This document shows positions 15,472-37,872 of a stretch of 64,000 nucleotides of DNA, piece after piece. The translations under genes and the position numbers were made by a program. The first letter of the stretch is position 1, and the number at the start of each line of letters is the position of its first letter. Origin of the DNA: Flagellimonas chongwuensis (lineage in GTDB: Bacteria; Bacteroidota; Bacteroidia; Flavobacteriales; Flavobacteriaceae); NCBI RefSeq assembly GCF_013376415.1, contig NZ_WYET01000003.1, positions 124,001 to 188,000 on the forward strand. The letters run 5' to 3'. Under the pieces are notes generated by a model that was given only the letters and a program-made list of their open reading frames with translations, had not been told where the DNA came from and did not search any database.

Positions 15472-15515
15472 TCAAATCTAAGCCTAGTAAAGATACTATT
15501 TAATGACAATTGTCA
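15472..15515 (-). promoter_or_regulatory. FNR-type site and -7 element upstream of hpf
   Basis: The perfect dyad TGACAATTGTCA occupies 15504-15515. On the minus strand a TAGATTTG -7 element follows at 15479-15472, separated by 24 bp, and the hpf ATG lies 53 bp from the dyad. This puts the dyad near -41.5 of the predicted start, the usual place for class II activation by Crp/Fnr proteins. Confidence 0.7.
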
Positions 15516-15530
15516 GCTTAAATCCTAATT

Positions 15531-16850
15531 TTAACCCAAGAAAAAAGGCTGCCCTGTACTCTGTAATACGGAGAACCAAAATTCGCCCTCCAAATCAATT
15601 TTCTTGCGCTTTTTGGTTACTTCACTAATGGGAATATACACATACCTGTTGTTCACACGACTGGCCACAAATTTGGTTTTTCCAGCCATGGCCCCGTGCA
15701 CCGCATGATAGGCCAATCCACTACAGTATACGCTATCGCTGGAGTTGGCAGGTGCACAACGTACTATGTAACTGGGGTCGATATATTTGATGGTCACAGG
15801 GCTCTTTCCTTTGAAGTATTCCGATATTTTTTCCTTTAGGAAAACCCCGATATCTTCATGCTGAACATTTCCTGATGCATCGGTCACAATTTGTCTATCC
15901 TTGAAAAGTTGCTGCCCTGCTCCCTCGGCCACTACAATTACCGCATGCTTTTTCTGAAGCAGCCTTTGTTCCAGAGCGGCAAAAAATCCATTTTCCCCCT
16001 CCAATGAAAAATCCATTTCCGGAACCAACACAAAGTTGACCACAGGCATGGCCAAAGCGGCCGATGCTGCTATAAAACCGCTATCCCTCCCCATTAATTT
16101 AATGATAGAAATACCATTGTAGGCTCCAGTAGCTTCGTTATGGGCATCCCTAAGAATGGGACTGGCCACATCAAAAGCAGTTTGGAAACCGAAGGATTCA
16201 TCGATTAGGTCAATATCATTGTCAATGGTCTTTGGAATCCCTACAACGCTGATTTTTGCATCTCTTTTGGTGATTTCGTTCCCTATGGCATTCACACCTT
16301 TCAAAGTTCCATCCCCTCCGATGGCAAAGAGCATGTCTATTTTGTTATTTTCAAGGGTATCTACCATTACCGATACATCTTGACCGCCACGGGACGAACC
16401 TAAAAATGTACCTCCAAATTGATGAATATCCTTGACCTTATCGGGCGTCAACTCTATCAACTCATGTCCTTTTTCAGGGTTGAGCCCTTCATAGCCGTAA
16501 GGAATACCAACAATTTTTTTTACTCCGTAGAAGTAATGCAAGGCCATCACTAAACCCCGGATTACATTGTTGATGCCGGGACAGAGCCCTCCGCATGTTA
16601 CGATTGCTGCGGTAGTGTTTTTTGCATCAAAAAATATGTTCTGCCTTGGCCCTGCTTTTTCCATGCAAATGGGTGACTCTCCATCATTCAAGCATTGATT
16701 ATAGTAGTCCATGGAAATGTCGAAGACCAGTCTATCGGACTCGCTTACAAAATTGAAAATACGGTCTCCCTTTACGGTACTAAGCTGAAGGGGCGACCTA
16801 TATTTAGGTGGCCCTAAGTTTTCTATATTAAAGATGCTCTTATCACTCAC
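15531..16850 (-). CDS. pfkA: 6-phosphofructokinase family protein (probably ATP-dependent, long form)
   Basis: 439 residues, longer than the classic 320-residue bacterial enzyme and like the long PfkA clades. It should phosphorylate fructose 6-phosphate. GGLCPGINNVIRG near residue 87 and GGDGTLKG at 178-185 form the nucleotide site, PKTIDNDID at 206-214 holds the catalytic Asp, and KLMGRDSGFIA binds substrate. The Gly in GGDG favours ATP over PPi, while Lys in PKTIDND is shared with PPi-type and trypanosomatid enzymes, so donor choice is not fully settled. A possible small gene lies 11 bp upstream. The gene precedes hpf on the same strand, but the hpf site in the gap suggests separate transcription. 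Confidence 0.9.
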   Translation of the reverse strand: MSDKSIFNIENLGPPKYRSPLQLSTVKGDRIFNFVSESDRLVFDISMDYYNQCLNDGESPICMEKAGPRQNIFFDAKNTTAAIVTCGGLCPGINNVIRGLVMALHYFYGVKKIVGIPYGYEGLNPEKGHELIELTPDKVKDIHQFGGTFLGSSRGGQDVSVMVDTLENNKIDMLFAIGGDGTLKGVNAIGNEITKRDAKISVVGIPKTIDNDIDLIDESFGFQTAFDVASPILRDAHNEATGAYNGISIIKLMGRDSGFIAASAALAMPVVNFVLVPEMDFSLEGENGFFAALEQRLLQKKHAVIVVAEGAGQQLFKDRQIVTDASGNVQHEDIGVFLKEKISEYFKGKSPVTIKYIDPSYIVRCAPANSSDSVYCSGLAYHAVHGAMAGKTKFVASRVNNRYVYIPISEVTKKRKKIDLEGEFWFSVLQSTGQPFFLG

Positions 16851-16861
16851 TGTATTGCTTC

Positions 16862-17287: not shown

Positions 17288-18079
17288 TTAGTCCAAAGCC
17301 AAAACCGGTATCTCGGAGTGCAAGGTCAACAGTTTAGTTAGCCTGCCCTCCGATGGAGTACTTTTTTCGGTATGGTTTCTTGGCAATATAGTTAACAGGT
17401 CAATGCTTTTCTCTACGATATAATCCAAAATGCCTTGCTCTATGTCTTCATTTTTAGTGAATGTATGATCCGCATAAAAATGCTCCAAGTAGTATTCCAA
17501 TAAATTCTCGTTGGATTCCTTTACAGCCTCTTCATCGTATATCGAATCTTTATAAATGGTAAGCACGTGGATCCTGGCGTCAAAAATTCTAGCTACATCC
17601 AAGAGGGTGCTCAAAACTTCTTTATCATCAATGCGTTCCCCGCCCATTACCAAAGCAATGTTCTTAGGGTCCTTGATTTCGGTTCCATAGGGGATGGAAA
17701 TCACAGGACAGTTGGCTTCCAACACTAATTTTGAGGTATTGGTTATGGCTTCATCAGTGATTTTATCGCCCATGGTACCCATCATAATCAAATCGGCGTT
17801 ATTCTCTTCTTGTGCCAACAGGATAGTTCCAATCACTTCTCCTGTATCTGTAATGAACTCAGGGGCAACTTTTAATCGTACCCCGAAAGAGTCCAACACT
17901 TTGAAAAAATCCTTTCCCAGTTTTTCATTGTCAGATGCACTTATGGGCATCGCACCCACATACAGACCAAGGATACCAATGGGTTTTTCGGTGCCTACAA
18001 AATTGACCACATATTCCAAAGCGTTGACTGATGCTTCGGAAAAATCAAAAGGAATTAATATTTTATTCAAACTGCTCAT
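17288..18079 (-). CDS. universal stress protein (UspA family)
   Basis: 263 residues from the start at 18079 (MSSLNKILIPFDFSEASVNA); an ATG at 18103 in the same frame would leave only about 5 nt of leader from the predicted promoter. The first Usp domain (residues 1-145) has KILIPFDFS, ADLIMMGTMGDK and CPVISIPYG, approximating the ATP-binding Usp pattern. The second half is a more divergent Usp-like domain (IALVMGG...ILDYIVEKSIDLLTILPRNH). It is the first of three Usp proteins in the window, all near low-oxygen genes. An FNR-type dyad lies 65 bp upstream. Confidence 0.88.
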   Translation of the reverse strand: MSSLNKILIPFDFSEASVNALEYVVNFVGTEKPIGILGLYVGAMPISASDNEKLGKDFFKVLDSFGVRLKVAPEFITDTGEVIGTILLAQEENNADLIMMGTMGDKITDEAITNTSKLVLEANCPVISIPYGTEIKDPKNIALVMGGERIDDKEVLSTLLDVARIFDARIHVLTIYKDSIYDEEAVKESNENLLEYYLEHFYADHTFTKNEDIEQGILDYIVEKSIDLLTILPRNHTEKSTPSEGRLTKLLTLHSEIPVLALD

Positions 18080-18112: not shown

Positions 18113-18155
18113 CAAAAGTAGAATCGACCTGTGACCTAAAACATGACAGATATCA
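18113..18155 (-). promoter_or_regulatory. FNR-type site and -7 element upstream of usp (18079)
   Basis: The dyad TGACAGATATCA occupies 18144-18155. On the minus strand TACTTTTG follows at 18120-18113 with a 23-bp gap, matching TAnnTTTG. Predicted transcription starts near 18108 and supports the ATG at 18079. Confidence 0.7.
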
Positions 18156-19366: not shown

Positions 19367-19409
19367 TGACGTTTATCATATTTTCTGATTTGGAAGAAAA
19401 CTACCTTTA
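19367..19409 (+). promoter_or_regulatory. FNR-type site and -7 element upstream of tonB-like gene
   Basis: The dyad TGACGTTTATCA occupies 19367-19378 and TACCTTTA follows at 19402-19409 with a 23-bp gap. The ATG at 19432 is 54 bp from the dyad. One arm departs from the most common pattern (G after TGAC), but spacing and promoter match the other sites. Confidence 0.6.
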
Positions 19410-19431: not shown

Positions 19432-20160
19432 ATGAAACCAAAAAAGAACCCAAACGTAGAAATCGGACGCAACAGCAGTCTATATTTTATGATAGGACTT
19501 ACTTCGGTATTGTTCATGACATGGCAATCTTTTGAAGTAAAGTTCTATGAAGAGGAATCCAAAGTTTCTGAAGTTGTACAACTAACCGACGAGCTTAAGG
19601 AAGATGTACCTATTACCGAAATGATACGTACCGCTCCGCCGCCACCGCCACCTTCTGCTCCAGCTGTTATTGAGATAGTGGATGATGTGGAAGATGTAAA
19701 AGAGACCATAATAGAAAGTACCGAGAGTAGCCAAGAAACTTATATTGAGGATGCTGTAGTCCGAATTGAGGATGTTGATGTGGAAGAAGTTGAGGAGGAA
19801 GTCATAGTGCCTTTCGCCGTTATTGAACACGTACCTGTTTTTCCAGGATGTGAGGACTTACAGACCCAAGCGGAACGCAAAGCCTGTTTTAACGAAAAGG
19901 TTCAGGAACACATTAAGGCAAATTTCAGCTACCCTTCATCCGCTTTAGAGATGGGAATTACAGGTAGAGTTTACGTACAGTTCGTGATTGATACCAACGG
20001 AAGGGTCGTAGGTATAGAAAAAAGAGGGCCGGACAAATTATTGGAACAAGAGGCCGGACGAATTATCGCTGCATTGCCCAAAGTGAAACCAGGTGAGCAA
20101 AGAGGTAAGCCCGTAAGTGTTAAATACAGCATACCCATTAACTTTATAATGCAAAATTAA
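19432..20160 (+). CDS. TonB family energy transducer protein
   Basis: 242 residues. A short cytoplasmic start (MKPKKNPNVEIGRNSS) leads into one membrane helix (residues 16-32, LYFMIGLTSVLFMTW). A periplasmic region begins with a proline stretch (APPPPPPSAP), then an acidic Glu/Val-rich spacer. The TonB C-terminal domain follows after FPGCEDLQTQAERKACF, with YPSSALEMGITGRVYVQF and KVKPGEQRGKPVSVKY, ending near the C-terminus. It should transfer ExbB/ExbD energy to outer-membrane receptors. It stands alone, with an FNR-type promoter in front and a hairpin terminator behind, unlike the exbB fragment at the left edge of the window. Confidence 0.9.
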   Translation: MKPKKNPNVEIGRNSSLYFMIGLTSVLFMTWQSFEVKFYEEESKVSEVVQLTDELKEDVPITEMIRTAPPPPPPSAPAVIEIVDDVEDVKETIIESTESSQETYIEDAVVRIEDVDVEEVEEEVIVPFAVIEHVPVFPGCEDLQTQAERKACFNEKVQEHIKANFSYPSSALEMGITGRVYVQFVIDTNGRVVGIEKRGPDKLLEQEAGRIIAALPKVKPGEQRGKPVSVKYSIPINFIMQN

Positions 20161-20268: not shown

Positions 20269-20311
20269 TGACAATTATCATGTTTTTTGCAAACCATCAA
20301 AAGTACTTTTG
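20269..20311 (+). promoter_or_regulatory. FNR-type site and -7 element upstream of hemN
   Basis: The dyad TGACAATTATCA occupies 20269-20280 and TACTTTTG follows at 20304-20311 with a 23-bp gap. The hemN ATG is 49 bp from the dyad. Confidence 0.7.
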
Positions 20312-20328: not shown

Positions 20329-21696
20329 ATGCAGATTATGTGCGAATTAGTTCAAAAATATAATGTTCCCGGCCCTCGATATACGAGTTATCCTACTGTT
20401 CCCTATTGGGACATGGAGAGTTTTTCAGGAAAAAAATGGAGATCAAGCGTGATACAAGCTTTCGAGGAAAATCCCGATGAGGGAATCAGCATTTATATAC
20501 ACCTACCCTTTTGCGAAAGCATGTGCACCTTTTGTGGTTGCCACAAGCGCATCACTAAAAGGCACGACGTGGAAAGTCCATATATATCAGCAGTTTTAAA
20601 GGAATGGGAATTGTACGTGGAACTGATGGGGTTTAGGCCTGTAATCAAAGAGCTTCACCTTGGCGGAGGAACACCCACCTTCTTTTCACCTGAAAATTTA
20701 AGGATGCTAATCAATGGAATTGTTCGTCTGGGCAAAAAGGCAGACGACATGGAGTTCAGTTTTGAAGGTCACCCCAACAATACCACCAAAGAGCATTTAC
20801 AAGCACTTTACGATGTCGGTTTTAGAAGGGTATGTTTTGGCGTACAGGATTACAACCTCACCGTACAACGTGCCATAAACAGGATCCAACCGTTTGAAAA
20901 CGTAAAAAATGTTACTGAATGGGCCCGTGAGATAGGGTACACTTCTGTAGGTCACGATATAATATATGGACTTCCTTTTCAAAATTGTTCCGATGTGGAA
21001 CAAACGATAATGAAGACCAATGCCATAAAACCGGATCGCATAGCCTTCTACAGCTATGCCCATGTGCCATGGCTCAAGGGCAATGGTCAGCGCGGGTACA
21101 AAGAAGAGGACCTCCCATCTTCCATAGAAAAAAAGGCTCAGTACGAGATGGGCAAGAGAATGCTTTCGGGCTTCGGTTATAAGGATGTTGGCATGGACCA
21201 TTTCGCCCTTCCCACAGACAGCCTCAAACAAGCCATGGAAAATGGAACCTTGCACCGAAATTTTATGGGCTACACCGCTTCTAAAACTAATCTAATGATA
21301 GGTCTGGGTGCCTCCAGCATCAGTGATAGTTGGTACGGATTTGCCCAAAATGTGAAAAATGTGGAAGAATATCAGAATTTGGTTTCACATGGAGTTATCC
21401 CTATTTTTAGAGGACACATATTAAATGAGGAAGACCAGATACTAAGAAAACACATCCTCAATATTATGTGTCGATTTGAGACAAATTGGAAACCTGAAGA
21501 AAGAGAAGTCGTTGATTTTGAAAACATACTGGCCAACCTATCCGAACTGGAGGCAGATGGCCTTGTTGAAATAGAAGACAAAACCATAAAGGTGACAGCC
21601 AAAGGCAGGCCTTTTGTCAGAAACGTCAGTATGGCCTTTGACCTAAAGATGCATCGAGAAAAACCAAATACCCGAATATTTTCCATGACCGTTTAA
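20329..21696 (+). CDS. hemN: oxygen-independent coproporphyrinogen III oxidase
   Basis: 455 residues. Radical SAM enzyme that decarboxylates coproporphyrinogen III without O2 to make haem under low oxygen. The N-terminal YNVPGPRYTSYPTVPYW and the iron-sulphur motif FCESMCTFCGCHK (Cys62, Cys66, Cys69) are diagnostic, as are LHLGGGTPTFF and the C-terminal domain with LEADGLVEI. The start could also be at 20338 (MCELVQKYN); both fit the promoter. An FNR-type dyad upstream and a usp gene 17 bp downstream place it in a low-oxygen operon, and the haem it makes is needed by the cbb3 oxidase encoded nearby. Confidence 0.96.
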   Translation: MQIMCELVQKYNVPGPRYTSYPTVPYWDMESFSGKKWRSSVIQAFEENPDEGISIYIHLPFCESMCTFCGCHKRITKRHDVESPYISAVLKEWELYVELMGFRPVIKELHLGGGTPTFFSPENLRMLINGIVRLGKKADDMEFSFEGHPNNTTKEHLQALYDVGFRRVCFGVQDYNLTVQRAINRIQPFENVKNVTEWAREIGYTSVGHDIIYGLPFQNCSDVEQTIMKTNAIKPDRIAFYSYAHVPWLKGNGQRGYKEEDLPSSIEKKAQYEMGKRMLSGFGYKDVGMDHFALPTDSLKQAMENGTLHRNFMGYTASKTNLMIGLGASSISDSWYGFAQNVKNVEEYQNLVSHGVIPIFRGHILNEEDQILRKHILNIMCRFETNWKPEEREVVDFENILANLSELEADGLVEIEDKTIKVTAKGRPFVRNVSMAFDLKMHREKPNTRIFSMTV

Positions 21697-21713: not shown

Positions 21714-22538
21714 ATGAAAAGTATAATCGTACCCGTTGATTTTTCAAATCAATCAGAAAAGGCACTGAAAGTGGCTGCCTCGTTGGCCAAGGAACAAAAT
21801 GCCGAACTATTTGTTCTCCATATGTTGGAGCTTTCTCCAGCCATTATGGGAGAATCTGGATATATTTCCCAAGAACAGGTGGTACACCTTATTAAACTTG
21901 GCGAGAAACGTTTTTCCGATTTTTTGGACAAGCCTTATCTAAAGGATATCACGGTTACCCCTGTGATCAAACACTACAAAGTATTCAGCGAAGTAGCAGA
22001 GGTAGCCGAAAAGCATAAGGCAGACCTGATTGTTATGGGCTCCAACGGAGCAGATGGCTTGCAAGAAATCTTTATTGGCTCCAACACCGAAAGGGTGGTG
22101 AGAACCTCTGATGTTCCCGTATTGGTCATCAAAGGGAACGAAGCGGACAATTTTAATCCAAAAAACTTTGTCTTCGCGAGCGATTTCGAACATGAAAGTG
22201 TACCCGCTCTGAAAAAAGCAATAGAAATGGCCAAGCTTTTGGAATCTAAATTACATTTGGTATACATCAACACACCGGGAGACGAATTTATGAGTACCAA
22301 CGACGCCTATTCTAAAATCTCCAAGTTTTTGAACGAGGCCAATGTAGGCATGGAAGTTGAAATCTTTAACGACTACACCGTTGAAAAAGGTGTGATAAAC
22401 TACAGCAAAAAAATCGGCGCCGACCTTATTGGCATCCCAACCCATGGAAGAAGAGGATTATCCCATTTCTTTATGGGAAGTATCGGGGAGGATATCGCCA
22501 ACCATTCTGAGGCACCGGTAATCACCTTTAAAATTTGA
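21714..22538 (+). CDS. universal stress protein with two Usp domains
   Basis: 274 residues with two Usp domains in tandem. Domain one (1-140) begins SIIVPVDFSNQSEKAL and has LIVMGSNGADGLQEIFIGSN, and domain two ends GIPTHGRRGLSHFFMGSIG. Both carry the G-x2-G-x9-G(S/T)-type ATP-binding pattern, so it is likely a nucleotide-binding Usp. It starts 17 bp after hemN and should be co-transcribed from the FNR-type promoter upstream of hemN. Its direct function is unknown, as for most Usp proteins. Confidence 0.9.
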   Translation: MKSIIVPVDFSNQSEKALKVAASLAKEQNAELFVLHMLELSPAIMGESGYISQEQVVHLIKLGEKRFSDFLDKPYLKDITVTPVIKHYKVFSEVAEVAEKHKADLIVMGSNGADGLQEIFIGSNTERVVRTSDVPVLVIKGNEADNFNPKNFVFASDFEHESVPALKKAIEMAKLLESKLHLVYINTPGDEFMSTNDAYSKISKFLNEANVGMEVEIFNDYTVEKGVINYSKKIGADLIGIPTHGRRGLSHFFMGSIGEDIANHSEAPVITFKI

Positions 22539-24624: not shown

Positions 24625-25071
24625 TCAGTACACTAATTTTTCTTTATGCAAAAAGGAATTACTTTCGTATTCCCAGCTTATGGAAATGTCCCAGCGACCG
24701 TCCACCAAGCGATTGTCAGGTATGAGCAAATGTGTATTGGACAAACTTATAGGAAAGTCTGTGTCCAAGTGCTTGTTAGACGGTCTGTATAGGGACACTG
24801 TTCCACTTATTTTTTTGGGGTCGAAACGTTCCGGAAACGCAATCACCAGCCCCTCTGCCGTTTTTTCAACCTTGAGGTTGGCATTCATTTCCTTCGCGGT
24901 TTTTGAGGCATCAATATCCTGTTGATAGGACAATTCCTTTTTATAATATTCCTCTGTCACCAAATCGTGGTTGGCGCTATCATCGGTACTCATCCGTATC
25001 ACAAAGTATAGGATAAACCCAATGAAGCCGATAAAAGCCAATACGATTCCTGTTCCCCAATTAATTTTCAT
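24625..25071 (-). CDS. ccoH: cbb3 oxidase assembly protein FixH/CcoH
   Basis: 148 residues. One N-terminal membrane helix (WGTGIVLAFIGFIGFILYFVIR) precedes a periplasmic Ig-like domain. The early NHDLVTEEYYKKELSYQQDIDASK is characteristic of FixH/CcoH, which assists maturation of the cbb3 oxidase. It follows ccoG by 11 bp and precedes the SafE-like gene by 2 bp, the expected order in a Bacteroidota cco operon. Confidence 0.9.
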   Translation of the reverse strand: MKINWGTGIVLAFIGFIGFILYFVIRMSTDDSANHDLVTEEYYKKELSYQQDIDASKTAKEMNANLKVEKTAEGLVIAFPERFDPKKISGTVSLYRPSNKHLDTDFPISLSNTHLLIPDNRLVDGRWDISISWEYESNSFLHKEKLVY

Positions 25072-27517: not shown

Positions 27518-27521
27518 AATG

Positions 27522-27712: not shown

Positions 27713-29914
27713 TTATTTGTTTTGAAATATAGTTTCTTCTGTTCCTTCAATTTTGATATCGGTACCCAGTCGCTGTAAGTAAGCGATCAAGGCTACGATT
27801 TCACGATCTTGCATTTCCACAAAATCCAATCCATTTTCCTGTGCGTACTTTTTGTCCGCTTCGTAGGTTCTCTCAAATTCCGGGTCTGCGTAAAGACTCT
27901 TTTCAATTGCCGCAGCCTGCTCTGCCATGGACTGTGGAGCGTTTGCAATATCCTCCTCGGTATAGGGCACTCCCAATTTTACCATTGTCTCCATCTTGGC
28001 CTGAACATCGCTACGATCGTGCTCATCGGTCACCAACCATTCGTAAGATGGCATGATGGAACCTGCCGATGTACTTTGTGGATCGTACATGTGGTTCAAG
28101 TGCCAGCTATCGGAATATTTTCCACCAACTCGAAGCAAGTCTGGACCTGTACGTTTACTACCCCACAAGAACGGGTGGTCGTACACAAATTCCCCTGCTT
28201 TGGCATATTCGCCATAACGCTCGACCTCACTACGGAAGGGACGTATCATTTGGGAGTGACAGCTTACACATCCTTCTCTGATATAAAGGTCCCGGCCTTC
28301 CAATTCCAATGGTGTATAGGGTTTAACACTGGTAATGGTAGGTATGTTGGATTTCACCAAGATGGTCGGTACAATCTGGATGACACCACCAATCAATATG
28401 GCAATGGTGGCCAAAATGGTCAACTGAACAGGTTTTCTTTCCAACCAGTTGTGAAAGGTCTCCCCAGCCACTCTTCTTTTGGCTACGCGTTCCAATGCAG
28501 GAGCTTCTGCCGTCTCATCCTCTACCTTGCTACCGGAACGAACCGTCATCACAACATTATAGAGCAATACGAACATTCCCAAGATATAGAGTGACCCTCC
28601 GATGGCCCTCATCCAGTACATGGGAATAATCTGGGTAACTGTTTCCAAGAAGTTACCGTACACCAAAGTACCATCCGGGTTAAATTCCTTCCACATTAAA
28701 GCTTGGGTAAACCCGGCTACGTACATCGGCAGGGCATACAATACAATACCCAAAGTTCCTATCCAGAAGTGGAAATTGGCTAATCCTTTGGAGTGCAATT
28801 CCGTTTTGAACATTCGTGGCACCAACCAGTAGATCATACCAAAGGTCATAAATCCGTTCCAGGCCAAAGCTCCTACGTGCACGTGAGCAATGATCCAGTC
28901 GCTAAAGTGTGCAATCGCATTAACGTTTTTCAAGGAAAGCATTGGTCCTTCGAACGTAGCCATACCATAACCTGTGATGGCTACCACCATAAATTTCAAA
29001 GTAGCATCGGTACGAACCTTATCCCACACTCCACGAAGTGTCAACAGACCGTTGATCATACCACCCCACGATGGAGCAATCAGCATGATGGAAAATACAA
29101 CCCCAAGGTTCTGTGCCCAATCCGGCAACGCAGAATACAATAAGTGGTGGGGACCAGCCCAGATATAAATGAATATCAACGACCAAAAGTGGACAATGGA
29201 CAGCCTGTAGGAATAAATTGGACGGTTAGCCGCTTTTGGGACAAAGTAGTACATTAATCCTAAGAAAGGAGTGGTCAAAAAGAATGCCACCGCATTGTGA
29301 CCGTACCACCATTGCACCAAGGCATCTTGCACACCAGCGTAAACGGAGTAGCTCTTCAATGCCGTTACTGGCAACTCCAAGCTATTAAATATGTGCAGCA
29401 CAGCTACGGTTACAAATGTGGCCAGATAGAACCAAATCGCTACATATAGGTGTCTTTGTCTTCTTTTTAAAATGGTACCGATCATGTTCCAACCAAAAAT
29501 TACCCAAACCACCGCAATGGCCAAATCTATCGGCCACTCCAATTCGGCGTATTCCTTGGATGTGGTGTATCCCAAGGGCAAAGTCAAGGCTGCAGCAACA
29601 ATGATTAATTGCCAGCCCCAAAAGTTGATGTTGCTCAGGACATCACTGAACATCCTTGCCTTCAGCAAGCGTTGCAGCGAGTAATACACCCCTGCAAAAA
29701 TGGCGTTCCCCACAAATGCGAAGATCACGGCATTGGTGTGCAATGGACGCAAACGCCCAAAACTCAACCATGAGATTCCTTCGGTAACATTGGGGAACAA
29801 AAACATAAAGGCCAACAAAAGACCTACTGCCATACCCACCACGCCCCATAAAATGGTAGCGTATAAGAACTTTTGTACGATTTTGTTATCGTAACGGAAC
29901 TGTTGTATTTCCAT
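27713..29914 (-). CDS. ccoNO: fused cbb3 oxidase subunits I and II (CcoN-CcoO fusion)
   Basis: 733 residues. The N-terminal part (about 1-480) is CcoN, the haem-copper catalytic subunit with about twelve helices and the expected His ligands: RLRPLHTNAVI, WWYGHNAVAF, AGPHHLLYSALP and DWIIAHVHVGALAWN. A linker with the last helix leads to the CcoO part, a cytochrome c domain with CVSCHSQMIRPFRSE near residue 550 and a Met-containing AGSIMPSYEWL. In Proteobacteria N and O are separate genes; the fusion is typical of Bacteroidota. The complex reduces O2 with high affinity. The operon is headed by ccoS and an FNR-type site. Confidence 0.96.
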   Translation of the reverse strand: MEIQQFRYDNKIVQKFLYATILWGVVGMAVGLLLAFMFLFPNVTEGISWLSFGRLRPLHTNAVIFAFVGNAIFAGVYYSLQRLLKARMFSDVLSNINFWGWQLIIVAAALTLPLGYTTSKEYAELEWPIDLAIAVVWVIFGWNMIGTILKRRQRHLYVAIWFYLATFVTVAVLHIFNSLELPVTALKSYSVYAGVQDALVQWWYGHNAVAFFLTTPFLGLMYYFVPKAANRPIYSYRLSIVHFWSLIFIYIWAGPHHLLYSALPDWAQNLGVVFSIMLIAPSWGGMINGLLTLRGVWDKVRTDATLKFMVVAITGYGMATFEGPMLSLKNVNAIAHFSDWIIAHVHVGALAWNGFMTFGMIYWLVPRMFKTELHSKGLANFHFWIGTLGIVLYALPMYVAGFTQALMWKEFNPDGTLVYGNFLETVTQIIPMYWMRAIGGSLYILGMFVLLYNVVMTVRSGSKVEDETAEAPALERVAKRRVAGETFHNWLERKPVQLTILATIAILIGGVIQIVPTILVKSNIPTITSVKPYTPLELEGRDLYIREGCVSCHSQMIRPFRSEVERYGEYAKAGEFVYDHPFLWGSKRTGPDLLRVGGKYSDSWHLNHMYDPQSTSAGSIMPSYEWLVTDEHDRSDVQAKMETMVKLGVPYTEEDIANAPQSMAEQAAAIEKSLYADPEFERTYEADKKYAQENGLDFVEMQDREIVALIAYLQRLGTDIKIEGTEETIFQNK

Positions 29915-29916: not shown

Positions 29917-30126
29917 TTATTGGTTTGTACTTTTAGTTTGTTTGATTTCCTTTTTATTTGAGTTTGATTTATCCTTATCCTTGATCACCTCATCCTCGAA
30001 CAACATTCTTACCGATGGGGTATAGGTATCGTCGTATTGTCCGCTTTTTACCGAAAAAACAAATGCTATAAAAAAGACAACGGCCACCGTTATGCTTATG
30101 GCCAACAACACATAAATAACACTCAT
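29917..30126 (-). CDS. ccoS: cbb3 oxidase assembly protein CcoS
   Basis: 69 residues. One N-terminal helix (MSVIYVLLAISITVAVVFF) and the following AFVFSVKSGQYDDTYTPSVRML contain the GQYDD...P.xR(M/I)L pattern of CcoS, needed for cofactor insertion into the oxidase. A Lys/Asn/Ser-rich tail closes it. It is the first gene of the structural operon (2 bp before ccoNO), with an FNR-type site 51 bp upstream. Confidence 0.92.
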   Translation of the reverse strand: MSVIYVLLAISITVAVVFFIAFVFSVKSGQYDDTYTPSVRMLFEDEVIKDKDKSNSNKKEIKQTKSTNQ

Positions 30127-30145: not shown

Positions 30146-30188
30146 TAAAACTACTTTGATGGTATTCCGTAAAAAATGACATATATCA
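30146..30188 (-). promoter_or_regulatory. FNR-type site and -7 element upstream of ccoS operon
   Basis: The dyad TGACATATATCA occupies 30177-30188 and includes the fixI stop codon (30186-30188). On the minus strand TAGTTTTA follows at 30153-30146 with a 23-bp gap, fitting TAnnTTTR. Predicted start is near 30141 and the ATG is 51 bp from the dyad. Confidence 0.7.
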
Positions 30189-32570
30189 GCTTTCTAAATT
30201 TTTTAATTCTTTACCCAAATAATTTGTTGCCAGGGTGGTGAACACCACTATACTAATGGAACTCAACGGCATCAAAATGGCCGCAATTACAGGCTGTAAC
30301 TGTCCGGTTACCGCAAAATATAGACCCACAACATTGTAGCAGAGCGATAACAAAAAGCTCATCTTTATAATGCGCATCGAACGTCTGGACAGTTTTATGA
30401 ATTTTGGCAGCATTTTTAACTTGGTTGCATCCAAGATTCCATCACAAGCAGGCGAAAACACATTAATGTTCTCCGAAACTGCCAATCCCACATCGCTTTG
30501 GGCCAAGGCTCCTGCATCGTTCAATCCATCGCCCACCATTAAAACCTTATGTTTGTCCTGTAGCTGTTTGATGTAGCCCAACTTATCCTCAGGCTTCTGG
30601 TCAAATAGCATCTTTGTCTTCTTTGGAAGTACTTTTTGCAATTGCTGCTTTTCCCCATCGTTATCGCCCGAAAGAATGCCGAGTTCCAAATCATTTGATA
30701 ATTCATTGAAAATTTGGCTCATTCCGTCCCGGTAGGTGTTCTTGAACACAAACCGTCCTTTTACATCTTCATCGGCACTTATATAGACCGCCGTATTGGT
30801 ACTTGTACCAGACTTGTTCTCGCCAACGTAGGAGGCCGAGCCTACTTTTATGGAATGTTGGTTATATTTTCCCTCGATGCCTTTTCCTGTATGCTCCTGG
30901 AATTCTTCTAGGGTCATTATGGAGTTGGATTTTAAAATATCGTAAAGCGACCGGCTCAAAGGGTGGTTGGAAGCCCGCAAAGTTGTTTTTAAAAGTGCGG
31001 TTTCCTCTGCTGTGAGCTCCATTCCTTCATAATGGATAGTGTCTTTTTGATTGGTGGTAAGCGTTCCGGTTTTATCAAATATCGCAGTGTCTATTTTTGA
31101 TAGACGTTCGATTACGCTGGTGTTTTTGAGATAAAATTTATACTTCCCGAAAATGCGGAGCATATTGCCCAATGTAAATGGGGCGGCCAATGCTATGGCG
31201 CATGGACAGGCAATGATCAATACCGAGGTGAACACATTCATTGCCAAGCTTGCATCAAAAACAAGCCAAAAAATTGTAGCTAGTGTAGCAATGCTCAAAA
31301 CAGCAATGGTAAATCGTTTGCCGATGCTATCGGTTATGGTCTGGAACTGGCTCGCCTTATCCTTTGAAAATACGGAGTTCCCCCAGAGTTGGGTCAGGTA
31401 ACTTTGGGATACGGACTTTAAGACCTCAACCTCCAACACCCCTGATAATTGTTTGCCGCCTGCGAACAATTTTTCTCCAGATTTCTTTACAACAGGGTCG
31501 GACTCACCGGTTACAAAACTATAATCGATTTCAGCGTTTCCTTTGATGAGGATACAATCCACAGGTATAATCTCGTGACTACGGATGAGCACCCTGTCCC
31601 CAACTTCAATATTGTAAATCTGGATGTTCTCCTCTTCCCCGGTTTTTTTCAAACGGGTAACGGCTATGGGAAAGTAGGATTTATAATCACGCTCAAACGA
31701 TAGGTAGGCGTAGGTTTTTTGCTGAAAGAATTTGCCCAGCAAAAGAAAGAAGACCAAGCCGGTAAGGCTATCAAAAAAGCCAGAGCCCAAATCAAATATG
31801 ATATCGACACTGCTTCTTAAAAATAGGACCAAAATCCCCAAAGCTATGGGCACATCAATATTCAACAGTTTAGAGCGGATGCCCTTATAGGCCGATATAA
31901 AATAATCTTGTGCCGCATAGCATACCACGGGTAGGGAAAAGGCGAACATCAACCACCGAAAAACGTGTTTGTATTGGTCTAACCAAAATTCCTCAACCTC
32001 AAAATATTCCGGAAATGAAAACAGCATCACATTGCCAAAGGCAAAACCTGCAACGCCCAATTTGTATATCAAGGAACGGTCTACCTTTTTCCCTTTTTTG
32101 TTGTATTCTTCCAAAGAGATATAGGGCTCGTAACCGATGCTTCCCAACAAAAGCACCAAGGCTTTAAGCGAGAAATCTTCGGTTTTGTAGGTGACCCGTA
32201 TGGTTTTTTTAGGAAAATCCACCTGTGAAACGCTAACGGCCGAATGCAACTTGTTCAGGTTTTCCAAGACCCAGATACAGGAACTGCAATGAATGGTAGG
32301 AATACTCAAACTGACCACTTGCACGCCATCTTCATTGAATTCCAAGAGTTGCTGTGCGATTTCTTGGTTGTCCAAAAAATCGTATTTCTGACGAATTTCG
32401 TTCGGCGTGGTCCCGGCCTTGCCCTCTATCTCATAATAAGTGGACAGGCCGTTCGATGTAAAAATCTCGTACACGGTCTTGCAACCATTGCAACAAAAAT
32501 CCTTATCATCAAATTGAATGCTGCGGTTACCACATTCGTCTCCACAATGATAACAGGTTGAATCTGCCAT
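30186..32570 (-). CDS. ccoI: copper-translocating P-type ATPase (FixI/CcoI)
   Basis: 794 residues. It pumps copper for assembly of the cbb3 oxidase. A Cys-rich N-terminal zinc-ribbon-like region (CYHCGDECG...DFCCNGCKTVYE) is followed by a heavy-metal domain with TIHCSSCIWVLENL (CxxC). The membrane core holds the metal motif IIACPCAIALAAPF, the phosphorylation motif IFDKTGTLT, and hinge motifs GDGLNDAGALAQSD. The Cys-rich leader before the metal domain is typical of CcoI rather than of general copper exporters. The gene lies just upstream of ccoS but with its own FNR-type promoter, shared divergently with fnr. Confidence 0.93.
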   Translation of the reverse strand: MADSTCYHCGDECGNRSIQFDDKDFCCNGCKTVYEIFTSNGLSTYYEIEGKAGTTPNEIRQKYDFLDNQEIAQQLLEFNEDGVQVVSLSIPTIHCSSCIWVLENLNKLHSAVSVSQVDFPKKTIRVTYKTEDFSLKALVLLLGSIGYEPYISLEEYNKKGKKVDRSLIYKLGVAGFAFGNVMLFSFPEYFEVEEFWLDQYKHVFRWLMFAFSLPVVCYAAQDYFISAYKGIRSKLLNIDVPIALGILVLFLRSSVDIIFDLGSGFFDSLTGLVFFLLLGKFFQQKTYAYLSFERDYKSYFPIAVTRLKKTGEEENIQIYNIEVGDRVLIRSHEIIPVDCILIKGNAEIDYSFVTGESDPVVKKSGEKLFAGGKQLSGVLEVEVLKSVSQSYLTQLWGNSVFSKDKASQFQTITDSIGKRFTIAVLSIATLATIFWLVFDASLAMNVFTSVLIIACPCAIALAAPFTLGNMLRIFGKYKFYLKNTSVIERLSKIDTAIFDKTGTLTTNQKDTIHYEGMELTAEETALLKTTLRASNHPLSRSLYDILKSNSIMTLEEFQEHTGKGIEGKYNQHSIKVGSASYVGENKSGTSTNTAVYISADEDVKGRFVFKNTYRDGMSQIFNELSNDLELGILSGDNDGEKQQLQKVLPKKTKMLFDQKPEDKLGYIKQLQDKHKVLMVGDGLNDAGALAQSDVGLAVSENINVFSPACDGILDATKLKMLPKFIKLSRRSMRIIKMSFLLSLCYNVVGLYFAVTGQLQPVIAAILMPLSSISIVVFTTLATNYLGKELKNLES

Positions 32571-32592: not shown

Positions 32593-32666
32593 CAAATTTG
32601 TAATACTCTTCTTGCTAAAAACATGATATTTATCAGTTAACACTAATTCCTTGTATCTTAAATTTG
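32593..32666. promoter_or_regulatory. shared divergent FNR-type site between fixI/ccoI and fnr
   Basis: The dyad TGATATTTATCA occupies 32624-32635. Rightwards, TAAATTTG follows at 32659-32666 with a 23-bp gap (fnr). Leftwards on the minus strand, CAAATTTG follows at 32600-32593 with a 23-bp gap (ccoI), differing from TAnnTTTG at its first base. A single dyad therefore has class II geometry for both genes, suggesting fnr autoregulates. Confidence 0.7.
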
Positions 32667-32689: not shown

Positions 32690-33379
32690 ATGGAAAGCAG
32701 GTGTGAAAATTGTATTATCAGGCAGTTTAACTCCCTTCGTGCAATGAGCAAGGAAGAATTAAAACAAGTCTCCGACTCCAAAACCACACGCACCGTTAAA
32801 AAAGGTGAGCCCATTTTTGAAGAAGGGGATAAACTCAACGGTGTCTACTGTGTACGAAACGGAGTATCCAAGCTTTCCAAGCTTAGTGCCAATGGCAAAG
32901 ACCAAATCGTGAAATTGGCAAGTAAGGGCGAAGTTTTAGGACAACGTTCTGTAATATCCCAAGAAAGCACTAACCTTTCCGCCATTGCGGTGAACGATAT
33001 GGAGGTGTGCTTTATTCCAAAGGAAAGCATCAACAATACACTTCAAAAAAATCCAAATTTTACTTTGGAGGTGTTGCGGCATATGGCCCATGATTTAAAG
33101 GAAGCCGATGATGTAATCGTCAATATTTCCCAAAAGACCGTAAAGCAAAGAATGGCAGAGGCCTTCTTGTACCTTCAAAACAATTTCGGAGAGGATGCCG
33201 AAGGCTACTTGGCTCTTACACTCTCCAGAGAAGATATTTCGAATGTGGTGGGAACTGCTACGGAATCCGCCATTCGAATTATTTCCGAATTTAAAAAGAA
33301 GGGATTGATCCGTACTTCGGGCAAGCGAATAGGCATAAAGGACGAGCGCAAACTCCTTGAAATGGTGGAAGGCTTTTAG
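32690..33379 (+). CDS. Crp/Fnr family transcriptional regulator, probable low-oxygen activator
   Basis: 229 residues from ATG 32690. A TTG at 32651 in the same frame is rejected because it lies within the promoter. A cyclic-nucleotide-binding-type beta-roll (about 25-115), a dimer helix (EVLRHMAHDLKEADDVI) and a winged helix domain with recognition helix near 185-203 (ISNVVGTATESAIRII). Cys5 and Cys8 at the N-terminus, Cys54 and Cys107 could serve a 4Fe-4S cluster as in FNR, but the spacing differs from E. coli (no third N-terminal Cys at the usual place). The recognition helix keeps E192 and R196 but has Ile where E. coli FNR has the Ser before Arg. Probable master of the eight dyads. Confidence 0.85.
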   Translation: MESRCENCIIRQFNSLRAMSKEELKQVSDSKTTRTVKKGEPIFEEGDKLNGVYCVRNGVSKLSKLSANGKDQIVKLASKGEVLGQRSVISQESTNLSAIAVNDMEVCFIPKESINNTLQKNPNFTLEVLRHMAHDLKEADDVIVNISQKTVKQRMAEAFLYLQNNFGEDAEGYLALTLSREDISNVVGTATESAIRIISEFKKKGLIRTSGKRIGIKDERKLLEMVEGF

Positions 33380-33395
33380 TCTATTTTCCAAAACC

Positions 33396-33438
33396 TGACA
33401 TTTGTCATAGTATCCCCTACCCCTTGGTTCTAATTTTA
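33396..33438 (+). promoter_or_regulatory. FNR-type site and -7 element upstream of usp (33461)
   Basis: The perfect-arm dyad TGACATTTGTCA occupies 33396-33407 and TAATTTTA follows at 33431-33438 with a 23-bp gap. The ATG at 33461 is 54 bp from the dyad. It lies in the 81-bp gap downstream of fnr. Confidence 0.7.
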
Positions 33439-33460: not shown

Positions 33461-34366
33461 ATGCAAAAGATATTAATACCTACGGATTTTTCGGAAAACG
33501 CATGGAATGCCATTGATTATGCCATGCAATTGTTCCGCAACAGGCGTTGCACATTTTACTTGCTCAACACCTATACCCCGGTTATCCCGAGCAGCCGATT
33601 TATGGCCAAAATGATTGATGGAGTCCGCATTGTGGATGCGGTAAGAGAGAATTCTGAACAGGGACTGAACAAGACCGTCAAGCGTATCCAGTCCAAATAC
33701 GGCAATCCCAATCACAGCTTTGAAACCATTTCTTCCTTTAATCTTTTGGTGGAGGAGGTCAAGGATATTGTTGAAACTTTCGGCATCAACCTTGTGGTAA
33801 CGGGCACTAAAGGGGCTTCTGGCGTGGATGAGGTATTTATGGGAAGTAATACCGTACGCATTATCAAAAGTGTGAGAAAATGTCCTGTTTTGGCCATTCC
33901 TTATCATTTTGAATATATTACACCCACTGAAATTGCCTTTGCCACCGATTTCAACCGCTTTTATACCACTTCAGAATTGGAACCTCTCTTGGATATGGCC
34001 AAAATGTTCAAGGCAACCATTCGGATTGTCCATGTGCAATATGGCATCAAAGCATTGACCGAGCTTCAGCAATTCAATTTGAACATGTTGCGCCGTTACT
34101 TGAACGATGTAGAGCATTATGTCCATACCGTTTCCGAGCTCAATTCAGTTTCCCATACTTTGGAAACTTTCTCCAAAGAACTAGGCATCCACTTATTGGC
34201 CATGCTGAACTATCAGCACAGCTACATGGAAAAAATGACCCGCGAACCGATAATAAAGCGAACCGCTTTCCACACCCAAATACCTTTATTGGTGATTCCA
34301 GAATTGGGGATGGAGGGAGTTTCCATAAAATCCAAAGAAGAACAAAAGGTAGAGGCTGAAGGTTGA
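33461..34366 (+). CDS. universal stress protein (UspA family), third in the window
   Basis: 301 residues. The first Usp domain opens KILIPTDFSENAWNAIDYAM and has LVVTGTKGASGVDEVFMGSNTVRII, the family's ATP-binding pattern. The second half is more divergent (EIAFATDFNRF, MLNYQHSYMEKMTREPIIKRTAF, IPLLVIPE). It lies just downstream of fnr but has its own FNR-type promoter, and ends 48 bp before the dehydratase start. Its charged tail (KSKEEQKVEAEG) is unusual but unremarkable. Confidence 0.88.
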   Translation: MQKILIPTDFSENAWNAIDYAMQLFRNRRCTFYLLNTYTPVIPSSRFMAKMIDGVRIVDAVRENSEQGLNKTVKRIQSKYGNPNHSFETISSFNLLVEEVKDIVETFGINLVVTGTKGASGVDEVFMGSNTVRIIKSVRKCPVLAIPYHFEYITPTEIAFATDFNRFYTTSELEPLLDMAKMFKATIRIVHVQYGIKALTELQQFNLNMLRRYLNDVEHYVHTVSELNSVSHTLETFSKELGIHLLAMLNYQHSYMEKMTREPIIKRTAFHTQIPLLVIPELGMEGVSIKSKEEQKVEAEG

Positions 34367-35353: not shown

Positions 35354-36809
35354 TATGGTTTTTGGGAAAAATCAGAGTAAAGGTGGTTCCTACATCCTTT
35401 TCACTTTGTACTTCTATTTTTCCATCCATGGCCTCCACTTGGGTTTTCACCAAATAAAGCCCAAATCCCTTGCCCTCCGTGGCACCACTCAATCTACCGT
35501 ACATATCAAAGATCTTACGTTCTTTTTCGGGTGTCAGCTCCATACCTATTCCATTATCTGTGAACCTTATTAGAATTGAATCGACCAGTTCCTCTGTGTT
35601 TATGGAAATGATAGCAGGTATACCTTCTTTGGCATAATTGATTGCATTTAAAATAAGGTTGTAAAAGATGTTGACCACATAGCTCTTGGCACCAAAAACC
35701 AAATCCATCTTGGTGAAATCTGTACGAATCGTAGCCTTATATTTTGTGATTTCTTCGGATAAAAGTCCATCAACATCCTTCATGACATCCTTTAGGTGAA
35801 CTTCTCTGAATTTCTCCCTGTCCGCGGATTTTAACGATAAGGAAAGGTGTAAATCCTTTATTGTTTGATCTAAGGCCTCGGTTGTGTGCTCTATTTTCTT
35901 TACAATATCGTCGTTCATGGGGTCCTTCCCCCATTCATATATTTTGGACAACATTAAAACATTGGAAATAGGTCCGCGTAGATTATGCGATATGATCCGA
36001 ACAAAGTTCTGGAGCTCATGGTTCTGTTCTACGATTTGTTGATTGGCCAGTACATCTTTGGTAACATCTTGGGTGGTACCTGCCATCCGGTACGGTTTTC
36101 CGTTCTCGTCATAAAACGGCCTCCCTTTTTGATGAACATACCGTATGTTTCCGTTGTCCAGAACAATCCTATGAATCACATCGTGCATCCTGTTTTTCTT
36201 GATGCTATCCTGAACGTCCTCAACGAATCCATCCCTATCTTCAGGGTGAATAATCTTCATCAAGGCATCAAAGGTTGCGTCAAATTTTCCGGGCTCTTGC
36301 TCAAAAATTCTGAACAATTGGTTGCTCCAACTAATTTTATCCTCTCGGATGTCCCAGTTCCAATGCCCAAAGACGGTTATTTCCTGAGCTTCTCTATACC
36401 TTCGTTCGCTTTCTTGCAGCCTATGTGTATTTTTTACAACTTGGGAAATATCTTTTTGCCAAATACAGCACCCTATAACTTCACCGAAGTTGTTCATAAA
36501 AGGTTGAAAAGAGAACTCGTGCACCGTCAATTCCCCATTTTCCTCAAAGGTATGTTTGGATGTTGTTGGATAACGATCAAGTGCCTGCGCACAACCCTTA
36601 CTACAGGGATTAAAGAAGTACGCGGACTGATAAACGGGATGTAAATCCATACCTCGTTCAGGCTTTCCCCAACCGGCTTTGCTTAGACGGTCCCCAAAAG
36701 ATGTATTAAAAGCAGTCAACTTATAATCTACATCCATGGCCCATACCGCATCATACCTATCCTCAACGATTTCAACCTTGTTATCAATTAAGATATGTTT
36801 ATGCTTCAC
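35346..36809 (-). CDS. PAS-domain sensor histidine kinase
   Basis: 487 residues with no membrane helices, so likely a soluble sensor. An N-terminal PAS-like region (about 20-130, with the cluster NPCSKGCAQALD) and a second PAS_3-type domain (about 131-260, GHWNWDIREDKISWSNQLF, IHPEDRDGFVEDVQ) precede the kinase core. The dimerisation box holds His in FVRIISHNLRGPISNVL, and the ATP domain shows YNLILNAINYA (N box), FTDNGIGMEL and GKGFGLYLVKTQV. A soluble double-PAS sensor fits sensing of internal redox or oxygen state, which is inference. It lies 81 bp downstream of a response regulator gene and is likely its partner. Confidence 0.9.
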   Translation of the reverse strand: MKHKHILIDNKVEIVEDRYDAVWAMDVDYKLTAFNTSFGDRLSKAGWGKPERGMDLHPVYQSAYFFNPCSKGCAQALDRYPTTSKHTFEENGELTVHEFSFQPFMNNFGEVIGCCIWQKDISQVVKNTHRLQESERRYREAQEITVFGHWNWDIREDKISWSNQLFRIFEQEPGKFDATFDALMKIIHPEDRDGFVEDVQDSIKKNRMHDVIHRIVLDNGNIRYVHQKGRPFYDENGKPYRMAGTTQDVTKDVLANQQIVEQNHELQNFVRIISHNLRGPISNVLMLSKIYEWGKDPMNDDIVKKIEHTTEALDQTIKDLHLSLSLKSADREKFREVHLKDVMKDVDGLLSEEITKYKATIRTDFTKMDLVFGAKSYVVNIFYNLILNAINYAKEGIPAIISINTEELVDSILIRFTDNGIGMELTPEKERKIFDMYGRLSGATEGKGFGLYLVKTQVEAMDGKIEVQSEKDVGTTFTLIFPKNHIT

Positions 36810-36890
36810 GGTTAAAATTTAATTTAAGAATAAAACAATGTCACCTATAGGGGGAACAATCAAAGGTTTTACTACTAAATATACGAACTA

Positions 36891-37280
36891 TTATTTATTA
36901 GCTCCTTGCAAATAATCCTCCAAGTGCTCGATACGCAATGGTTTAGTGATAAACTTCTTTACAAATTTACCGTACTTCTCAGCCTCGGCTTTATCCGCCT
37001 CTGCCTCAGAAGAGGTTACCAAGAGGACTTCATTGGTTTCTGGAAAGTCTTCAAGCATCATGAATTCCAAAAATTCAAATCCGCTCATTTCCGGCATATT
37101 TATATCCAATAAAATAAGTGTTTTTATCCCGGGGTTATCTCTATACCTCAAATCGTCTAGGGCCAATTCGGGATTAGTAAAACTCTTCACCCTATCTTCC
37201 ATTCCCATTCTTCTAAAGTGAATAGCATTTACAGTATTCACCAGGTCTTCGTCATCGACCAAGTATATTTCCTTGTACAT
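36891..37280 (-). CDS. single-domain response regulator
   Basis: 129 residues made only of a receiver domain. YLVDDEDLVN gives the acidic pair, LLDINMPEMSG the phospho-acceptor Asp (about residue 60), VTSSEAEADK the conserved Ser/Thr and FITKPL the conserved Lys. There is no DNA-binding or enzymatic output domain, so it probably acts through protein contact or a phosphorelay with the kinase encoded immediately downstream. An FNR-type dyad lies 52 bp upstream of its ATG. Confidence 0.92.
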   Translation of the reverse strand: MYKEIYLVDDEDLVNTVNAIHFRRMGMEDRVKSFTNPELALDDLRYRDNPGIKTLILLDINMPEMSGFEFLEFMMLEDFPETNEVLLVTSSEAEADKAEAEKYGKFVKKFITKPLRIEHLEDYLQGANK

Positions 37281-37872
37281 AGCTTCTGGCCTATTTAGTT
37301 GGTTTCAGTTTGGTTTTATTGTGAAAAAAATTGACAAATATCAATAATTTCCATCTAATAAAACTCCAATAATAATGTTTTATTACAAATAAAAGTAACC
37401 CTTTGTGTATTGAATCAAGAAATTAAAAGATTCTTATAAATCCCATTAGACCCAATACCTTTCCAAACACCTGATTGTCTTAAATTTACAATTATTCTTG
37501 TATTTTAACAAAAACTCACCTAGAATTTTAAGTCCCTTTATTTATTCAAACCTTTATATTCTTATCTCCTATATTGTTTAGAAGATATCAACCAATGTTT
37601 AAGTCCGGTATGGCTCACTTAATAGATGAATTACAAAGTAGTTTTATGTAATTTCAAAATAGCAGTGAATAGAATACGTGCCCTTAATGTCCATACATTT
37701 TTATTTGCAAGCACCTATCCTATTTATAAAATGCCAACATTAGAGTTGAGAATTAACTTGATGCATAATTCTACACATAGAATTCTATTCAATCCACAAA
37801 TTTTTCCTTCTTATGGTATAAATAATTTCATTTTCAACTCTTTTTTCTATTTTTAGTGGGAATACCAACCTC
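37281..37872. other. 592-bp AT-rich intergenic region
   Basis: The gap between the divergent response regulator and the TonB-receptor operon contains the FNR-type dyad at 37332-37343. Beyond it I see no tRNA, terminator-like hairpin or convincing short gene; a 76-residue frame on the plus strand looks like chance. Confidence 0.7.
37332..37343 (-). promoter_or_regulatory. FNR-type site upstream of the response regulator/kinase pair
   Basis: The dyad TGACAAATATCA lies 52 bp from the response-regulator ATG, like the other seven sites, but the expected -7 position (37301-37308) reads CTGAAACC on the minus strand, which does not match TAnnTTTG. The operator is probable; the promoter is not resolved. 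Confidence 0.55.

Follow-up and report, generated by a model that had tools for sequence, protein, structure and literature searches.

Of the regulators described so far, the FNR proteins of E. coli and other proteobacteria, FnrL and FnrP among them, come closest to the system treated here. In the parts available of the papers cited in this text, to which our statements about them are limited, the FNR boxes of Sphingopyxis are centred at −41.5 for ccoN and uspA and at −42.5 for hemN2 and are termed class II (PMC7713065), and FnrL of two Rhodobacter species targets ccoN, uspA and fnrL, with hemN a further target in R. sphaeroides (PMC4634722). We studied a 64,000-nt stretch of the Flagellimonas chongwuensis genome (contig NZ_WYET01000003.1, positions 124,001 to 188,000; the window), in which dyads of the form TGAY-N4-RTCA stand at a fixed distance from promoter elements around the gene of a CRP-family protein (32690..33379). 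The protein and its putative operators share with these FNR proteins and their sites the CRP fold, an N-terminal CxxC, an equivalent of Cys122, the TGA-N6-TCA dyad, a predicted centre at −41.5 and the targets ccoN, hemN, uspA and the fnr gene itself, and differ in the Bacteroidota −7 element of the promoters.

Within the Bacteroidota, HcpR2 and the BT4338 Crp (Bacteroides) are likewise CRP/FNR-family regulators with predicted palindromes, but their motifs, GTAACnnnnGTTAC (PMC1274295) and TATGTTnTAnAACATA (PMC3878776), differ from the dyad found here, and the targets named in the available parts of those papers are hcp and sugar genes, with cbb3 and hemN unnamed. Of the matches listed in a search of open-access titles and the beginnings of abstracts, with subscription papers outside it, none that we saw describes an FNR regulon for a member of the Bacteroidota.

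Dyads at a fixed distance from the −7 element

A motif scan of the window found all eight dyads reported by the initial annotation, at 15504, 18144, 19367, 20269, 30177, 32624, 33396 and 37332, and the observation of dyads with a fixed spacing is confirmed. Matches to TGAYNNNNRTCA numbered 13 against 4.58 expected, with at least 13 in none of 100 shuffles. At seven of the dyads, a TAnnTTTR element follows after a gap of 23 bp, leftwards at 15504, 18144 and 30177 and rightwards at 19367, 20269, 32624 and 33396; the spacing is exact at each of the six sites for which it had been claimed, and at 15504, for which 24 bp had been given, it also measures 23 bp (leftwards, TAGATTTG). The leftward arm of 32624 does, as reported, have an element at 23 bp, namely CAAATTTG, and the dyad at 37332 indeed lacks a TAnnTTTR-type −7 element at that distance on either side; that at 18144 has none on its rightward side, towards a ROK kinase. 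The distance from dyad end to start codon is 48–64 bp (52 bp for the hibernation factor HPF, ATG at 15451), within one base of the 49–65 bp first reported. When the full pattern TGAC-N4-RTCA-N23-TAnnTTTR was searched with at most one mismatch, the window gave 7 matches against 0.13 expected and a maximum of 2 in 100 shuffles, in agreement with the claim that the repeated exact spacing is hard to obtain by chance. The eight dyads had been presented as one promoter class; this holds for seven promoters, plus one more from the two-way operator at 32624, but the dyad at 37332 is of another type. Five further dyads (3266, 7860, 14993, 58286 and 59522) lie inside open reading frames (ORFs), have no gap-23 element and were rejected as promoters. 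T-rich stretches stand behind several dyads, and the operator at 30177–30188, ahead of the cbb3 genes, shares bases with the stop codon of ccoI.

The genes and elements are as follows; universal stress protein is abbreviated USP.

32690..33379, plus strand: putative FNR-like CRP-family activator, 229 aa, with C5, C8, C54, C107 and helix TATESAIR (Pfam cNMP_binding and HTH_Crp_2; phmmer)
32624..32635, unstranded: predicted two-way operator TGATATTTATCA of the regulator gene and ccoI (motif scan; two-way 23-bp spacing in relatives)
32659..32666, plus strand: −7 element TAAATTTG of the regulator gene, gap 23 (spacing scan; relatives)
32593..32600, minus strand: −7 element CAAATTTG of ccoI, gap 23 (spacing scan; relatives)
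30186..32570, minus strand: ccoI, heavy-metal P-type ATPase (TIGR01525 above cut-off, Pfam; named ccoI by its position in the cluster)
30177..30188, unstranded: predicted operator of the ccoS-ccoNO-ccoP-ccoG-ccoH genes (motif scan; ahead of ccoS in 72 of 80 loci)
30146..30153, minus strand: −7 element TAGTTTTA of the cbb3 genes, gap 23 (spacing scan)
29917..30126, minus strand: ccoS (TIGR00847 above cut-off)
27713..29914, minus strand: ccoN-ccoO fusion (COX1, FixO)
26543..27544, minus strand: ccoP (FixP_N, Cytochrome_CBB3)
25083..26492, minus strand: ccoG (Fer4_18, FixG_C)
24625..25071, minus strand: ccoH (FixH)
33396..33407, unstranded: predicted operator of the USP gene at 33461 (motif scan; ahead of the orthologue in 78 of 80 loci)
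33431..33438, plus strand: −7 element TAATTTTA of the same gene, gap 23 (spacing scan)
33461..34366, plus strand: USP (Pfam Usp)
20269..20280, unstranded: predicted operator of hemN (motif scan; gap-23 site also at hemN of three farther relatives, L152, L156 and L158)
20304..20311, plus strand: −7 element TACTTTTG of hemN, gap 23 (spacing scan)
20329..21696, plus strand: hemN, oxygen-independent coproporphyrinogen III oxidase (TIGR00538 above cut-off)
21714..22538, plus strand: USP, 17 bp behind hemN and, from this spacing, probably co-transcribed with it (Pfam Usp)
19367..19378, unstranded: predicted operator of a TonB-like gene (motif scan; gap-23 site ahead of a 56% identical TonB in L153)
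19402..19409, plus strand: −7 element TACCTTTA of the TonB-like gene, gap 23 (spacing scan)
19432..20160, plus strand: TonB-like protein (Pfam TonB_C)
18144..18155, unstranded: predicted operator, acting leftwards, of the USP gene at 17288–18079 (motif scan)
18113..18120, minus strand: −7 element TACTTTTG of the same gene, gap 23 (spacing scan)
17288..18079, minus strand: USP (Pfam Usp)
15504..15515, unstranded: predicted operator, acting leftwards, of the hibernation factor gene (motif scan)
15473..15480, minus strand: −7 element TAGATTTG of the hibernation factor gene, gap 23 (spacing scan)
15152..15451, minus strand: ribosome hibernation factor, S30AE family (Pfam Ribosomal_S30AE)
37332..37343, unstranded: dyad TTGACAAATATCAA, TTGAC..ATCAA, ahead of a response regulator gene beside a PAS kinase (motif scan; no −7 element at gap 23)

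In Flavobacterium johnsoniae the −7 element extends from T−12 to G−5, and many start sites lie 4 or 5 nt beyond it (PMC6847099). With the same placement at −12 to −5, a dyad at gap 23 would end at −36 and be centred at −41.5, which, by transfer from F. johnsoniae, would be the position of a class II activator. Both the targets and the geometry are then those of the proteobacterial FNR proteins, which points to an FNR regulon of that kind set on a Bacteroidota promoter.

The putative regulon across the genome

The initial annotation had proposed a genome-wide scan for the dyad together with its −7 element, and we ran one on the 3.77-Mb genome (13 contigs), defining a strict site as TGAYN4RTCA, a gap of 23 and TAnnTTTR. 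Dyads number 270, against 105 with the reversed pattern, and just 17 of them carry a −7 element at gap 23; we thus rejected the dyad alone as evidence. For the pair the peak is sharp: between gaps 8 and 38 there are 35 dyad/−7 pairs, 17 of them at gap 23, while the remaining 30 gaps hold 18 together (0–2 each, mean 0.6). All 17 strict sites have an ORF start 8–53 bp behind the −7 element. The elements conform to the TAnnTTTG of the Bacteroidota housekeeping promoter if A is allowed for the last G (the base is G in 10 and A in 7), and in that of ccoI the first T is replaced by C. Three near matches are not counted among the 17: C8:53524, with a gap of 24 and 5 bases ahead of a cytidylate kinase-like start (named by eye), and two pairs at gap 22, C1:333190 and C4:26729.

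Seven of the strict sites fall in a 22-kb part of the window (binomial 4e-12, the stretch having been picked by the initial annotation), and four more are clustered in some 6.5 kb of contig C3, the second cluster, ahead of two USP genes (named by eye) and two genes for small proteins without a Pfam match. The others precede genes for a USP (L031, by eye), a 156-aa protein (L032), OmpW (L034), a biotin-carrier protein (L035, by eye), a ferritin-like, Dps-like protein (L036) and a thioredoxin-like protein (L037). What had been read as a local low-oxygen regulon of FNR type with a fixed geometry is therefore far above chance and conserved across species, as shown below, but genome-wide rather than local. 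Judged by these sites, it is a genome-wide FNR-like class II regulon, and its response would be to oxygen.

Conservation in close and family-level relatives

We compared 80 loci with a regulator 82–99% identical to that of the window, the best matches from named genomes being Flagellimonas or Allomuricauda; L120–L149 (30 loci) and L163–L168 stand outside these locus counts. With gaps of 5 to 45 admitted, dyad/−7 pairs numbered 234 at gap 23 and 14 at gap 17, with no other gap above 4, and in many loci a second TAnnTTT match, seen by eye, lies six bases ahead of the gap-23 one and accounts for the minority at 17. Gap-23 sites precede the USP gene in 78 loci, the regulator or an adjoining CRP paralogue in 76 and ccoS in 72; 8 others occur in 7 loci. 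In alignments of orthologous promoters, the mean column identity was 0.56–0.72 for the 23-bp spacer, 0.61–0.77 for the upstream flank and 0.87–0.95 for the inner N4 of the dyad; the dyad arms and the −7 element are no evidence here because the rows were chosen by pattern.

The dyad stands immediately upstream of the regulator in 64 of the 80 loci, and in 62 of these a TAnnTTTR follows at gap 23 towards the regulator. On the ccoI side of the same 64, CAnnTTTG is found at gap 23 in 60 and TAnnTTTG in none, and the C in place of the first T (32593–32600 in the window) may make this promoter strictly activator-dependent. In 14 of the remaining 16 loci a second CRP-type gene (29–37% identical) lies between dyad and regulator; L110, which is cut, also has the second gene, and L101 has none, its dyad lying farther upstream. 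In 13 of the 16 (L074, L078, L087, L094, L097, L098, L099, L104, L106, L108, L109, L110 and L117), the regulator instead has a CT-N10-AG dyad 22 bp ahead of TAnnTTTR, with the centre again at −41.5. The arrangement of this dyad and a second CRP-type gene upstream of the regulator looks like a cascade.

The spacing persists at greater distance. In 13 stretches from seven family-level genomes, with regulators 51–63% identical, 25 pairs had gap 23, 3 had gap 22, 1 had gap 24 and no other gap had more than 3; the gap-23 sites precede genes for CcoS, HemN, TonB, USP, Hsp20-like (by eye) and other proteins. One of the genomes examined, G271, has such a site ahead of a complete pyruvate formate-lyase with a glycyl-radical domain and of a pyruvate phosphate dikinase. 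Within the genus, gap-23 sites were found in 30 of 30 genomes, 9–40 in each, the reversed control giving 0–2.

The class-wide survey and tandem dyads

Gap-23 sites occur in 252 of 296 Bacteroidia genomes and reversed matches in 72, the totals being 1447 sites and 97 reversed matches. The mean is 5.86 sites in the 235 genomes with a relative of the regulator (E ≤ 1e-20) and 1.15 in the 61 without; the Mann–Whitney value of 4.6e-17 is too small, although the direction is clear, because the genomes are related and the relatives may include fusions of a receiver with a CRP protein.

For a closer view we took the surroundings of 20 receiver-CRP fusions and of 20 distant regulators, 40 stretches in all; the distant relatives were drawn from the best-scoring among the matches listed, some form same-genus pairs, and a further set of such relatives was partly chosen for a late match start. 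Two peaks emerged, at gap 23 (13 pairs) and at gap 45 (16), over a background of 0.43 per gap. Around the distant regulators, gap 23 alone gives a weak signal, 3 pairs in 20 stretches. Between dyad and −7 element of the 16 gap-45 pairs, a second TGA-N6-TCA dyad stands at gap 23 in 10, one arm of it in 4 and neither arm in 2. By this pattern, the gap-45 pairs with an inner dyad are tandem dyads 22 bp apart, with predicted centres at −63.5 and −41.5; the tandem sites of L180 (11018), L187 (9032) and L206 were counted at gap 23 as well. They precede CcoS-like, DoxX-like, 2-hydroxyacid dehydrogenase, USP, Hsp20-like and other genes (named by eye). In F. chongwuensis itself, the 45-bp pair is absent from the window and from seven further stretches with strict sites.

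The dyad at 37332

As an eighth promoter the dyad at 37332 was rejected: besides lacking the −7 element at 23 bp, it has the outer T and A. The 80 loci yielded 38 orthologous upstream stretches, which we read by eye: 18 have TGATATTTRTCA at this position, in every case flanked by the outer T and A and lacking a −7 element at 23 bp, while 2 have a TGAC dyad farther off, 1 is cut short and 17 have no dyad. The site is probably not an activator site of the present class, and it may be a repressor site placed over a promoter or the site of another regulator.

The regulator and its cysteines

Pfam PF00027, PF13545 and PF00325 all match the regulator, which places it in the CRP/FNR superfamily. If the cluster ligands of FNR are, as we take them to be, Cys20, Cys23, Cys29 and Cys122, then Cys5, Cys8 and Cys107 of the regulator align with the first, second and last of them. 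A different cysteine, Cys54, in the beta-roll strand 51–57, is kept in 80 of 80 close relatives and 15 of 15 proteins of a wider alignment, and Cys5, Cys8, Cys54 and Cys107 occur together in all 80. Of the class-level relatives, 19 of 20 in one set and 13 of 20 in the other have the same four (32 of 40); among the other 8, L208, L209 and L216 lack all four and 5 retain some. Co-conservation of the four suggests a different ligand set for the cluster, and Cys54 would be a ligand by that co-conservation and by the adjacency of its strand to that of Cys107, which we assume from the jelly-roll topology.

The recognition helix reads E-S-A-I-R here and E-T-I-S-R in E. coli FNR, with Ile in place of the serine that is presumably Ser212. 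Correspondingly, the sites differ from the TTGAT-N4-ATCAA of E. coli FNR in that the outer T or A is absent from all 34 half-sites of the 17 strict sites (20 A, 9 C and 5 G instead of the T), the core TGAY-N4-RTCA being our selection criterion; the absence agrees with Ile for Ser212, given the role we ascribe to that serine. The Fnr of Bacillus subtilis has its cysteines at the C terminus, and the regulator of the window has two at the N terminus. The two are alike in that the Bacillus protein is an FNR-like oxygen regulator with a three-cysteine cluster (title of a reference in PMC4771820).

A PAS kinase and a receiver-CRP fusion in the second cluster

The four gap-23 sites of the second cluster on C3 lie amid USP genes where a PAS histidine kinase adjoins a receiver-CRP fusion (L038 9203–11720). 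Residues 8–111 of the kinase, the PAS domain, match the haem-PAS chains of FixL (E 3e-9) and DosP (E 2e-9), and the haem ligand of this candidate haem-PAS domain was judged by eye against the FixL sequence. The fusion protein (C3:319702–320745) consists of a receiver, cNMP_binding and HTH_Crp_2, and relatives of it, near full-length in all but two, occur in 74 of 149 class genomes. The pair resembles the rhizobial FixL-FixJ-FixK system in the match of its PAS domain to FixL and in having, like FixK, a CRP-type output. The output domain of FixJ is LuxR-type, but that of the fusion is cNMP_binding with HTH_Crp_2, so that receiver and CRP domains are united in one protein. We read kinase and fusion as a putative second, two-component oxygen branch with overlapping operators.

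Discussion

We consider it highly probable that the FNR-like regulator at 32690–33379 governs a low-oxygen class II regulon in this marine flavobacterium. Falling oxygen would activate the protein, the most likely sensor being an oxygen-labile iron-sulfur cluster on Cys5, Cys8, Cys54 and Cys107; the dimer would then bind TGAY-N4-RTCA, mostly with A or C ahead of the TGA. Placed 23 bp upstream of a TAnnTTTG-type −7 element and thus centred at −41.5, the dyad would hold the dimer next to the housekeeping RNA polymerase, in the manner of a class II activator. Predicted to be induced are the cbb3 oxidase genes, their copper pump, HemN, the universal stress proteins, the hibernation factor, the TonB-like gene and the regulator itself, with a single two-way dyad serving both the regulator gene and ccoI.

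Several observations weigh against this reading. Site counts track phylogeny and the relatives counted may include receiver-CRP fusions, so the class-wide points are neither independent nor clean, and the reversed pattern is an imperfect control; within the window, the dyad at 37332 fails to fit the rule. As for the protein, the P. gingivalis Crp/Fnr protein 2gau is as near to it as FNR by sequence (a phmmer search of the PDB tied 2gau with the A. fischeri FNR chains at E 2e-25) and nearer by fold (Z 26.1, against 20.8 for holo-FNR 5e44, with a structure model of pLDDT 82), and CRP, GlxR, NtcA and FixK2 reach Z values similar to or above that of FNR, which the fold comparison thus fails to separate from other CRP proteins. 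The NCBIfam Fnr model (PRK11161), though still the top family, scores 112.3 bits against a cut-off of 228. The regulator has no equivalent of Cys29, where it has Asn14, and in 15 of the 20 distant regulators (L189–L207) a fifth cysteine stands eight residues past the CxxC; this could be a third N-terminal ligand, and Cys54 need not be one in those relatives. Finally, the receiver-CRP fusion in the same genome has a similar recognition helix, and some of the sites may for that reason belong to it. The regulator had been taken for FNR itself; FNR-like it is, but the missing ligand cysteine and the recognition helix distinguish it from the E. coli protein, and because it departs from the E. coli type in a ligand cysteine, in its curated score and in the outer base of its operators, we do not file it there. 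By its sequence the protein is an FNR-like member of the CRP/FNR superfamily from a Bacteroidota lineage.

The fusion could in fact be the main owner of the sites, under the control of the PAS histidine kinase next to it, with a minor part left to the window regulator; the helix of the fusion (ATESLIR, against ATESAIR in the window protein), its wide distribution, the four of 17 strict sites within 6.5 kb around the pair and the 10 gap-23 sites in 7 of the 20 loci around fusions all fit such an arrangement. We nevertheless hold it to be unlikely: in relatives, sites of the window type surround the window regulator, and G125, which has an orthologue of the regulator and no fusion match at E 1e-40, has kept the ccoS site (L161). 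The two groups of sites also differ, A at position 5 together with T at position 8 occurring in 6 of 7 window sites and 0 of 4 in the fusion cluster (Fisher 0.015, for a feature picked post hoc). Somewhat less likely again is a regulator that senses nitric oxide, redox state or a metal through its cysteines instead of oxygen. CRP/FNR proteins of like fold answer many signals, and the absence of Cys29 would suit a change of signal; the targets, however, comprise a high-affinity oxidase and oxygen-independent haem synthesis, to which one relative adds the glycyl-radical enzyme pyruvate formate-lyase, much like the FNR set elsewhere as far as the cited papers describe it, and three cysteines align with what we take to be ligands of FNR (Cys20, Cys23 and Cys122).

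That the repeated spacing should be a by-product of shared ancestry or of A+T-rich composition is very improbable. Both motifs are A+T-rich, and orthologous promoters of the same genus are not independent, but shared ancestry does not account for 17 promoters of different genes in one genome at gap 23, where the count at other gaps is low, nor does it explain why spacer and upstream flank have diverged to a similar extent while the inner N4 was kept; the class-wide excess of 1447 over 97 points the same way.

Beyond the FNR-like regulon of F. chongwuensis, we put forward a wider view tentatively, with the balance resting slightly against it: a Bacteroidia FNR lineage with Cys54, the CxxC and the Cys122 equivalent as ligands would follow a strict class II rule, with the dyad centred at −41.5 relative to a TAnnTTTG element, in tandem at −63.5 and −41.5 in distant families, and the branch of PAS kinase and receiver-CRP fusion, FixJ and FixK in one protein as it were, would obey the same rule. 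A sequence rule of one dyad, one gap and one −7 element lets low-oxygen regulons be read from the genomes of Bacteroidota, a group with promoters unlike those of E. coli. In the ccoI promoter, base −12 is a conserved C, which bears on how class II activation offsets a weak −7 element, and if it is true that the four cysteines hold the cluster, the FNR oxygen sensor would have been constructed here in a different way.

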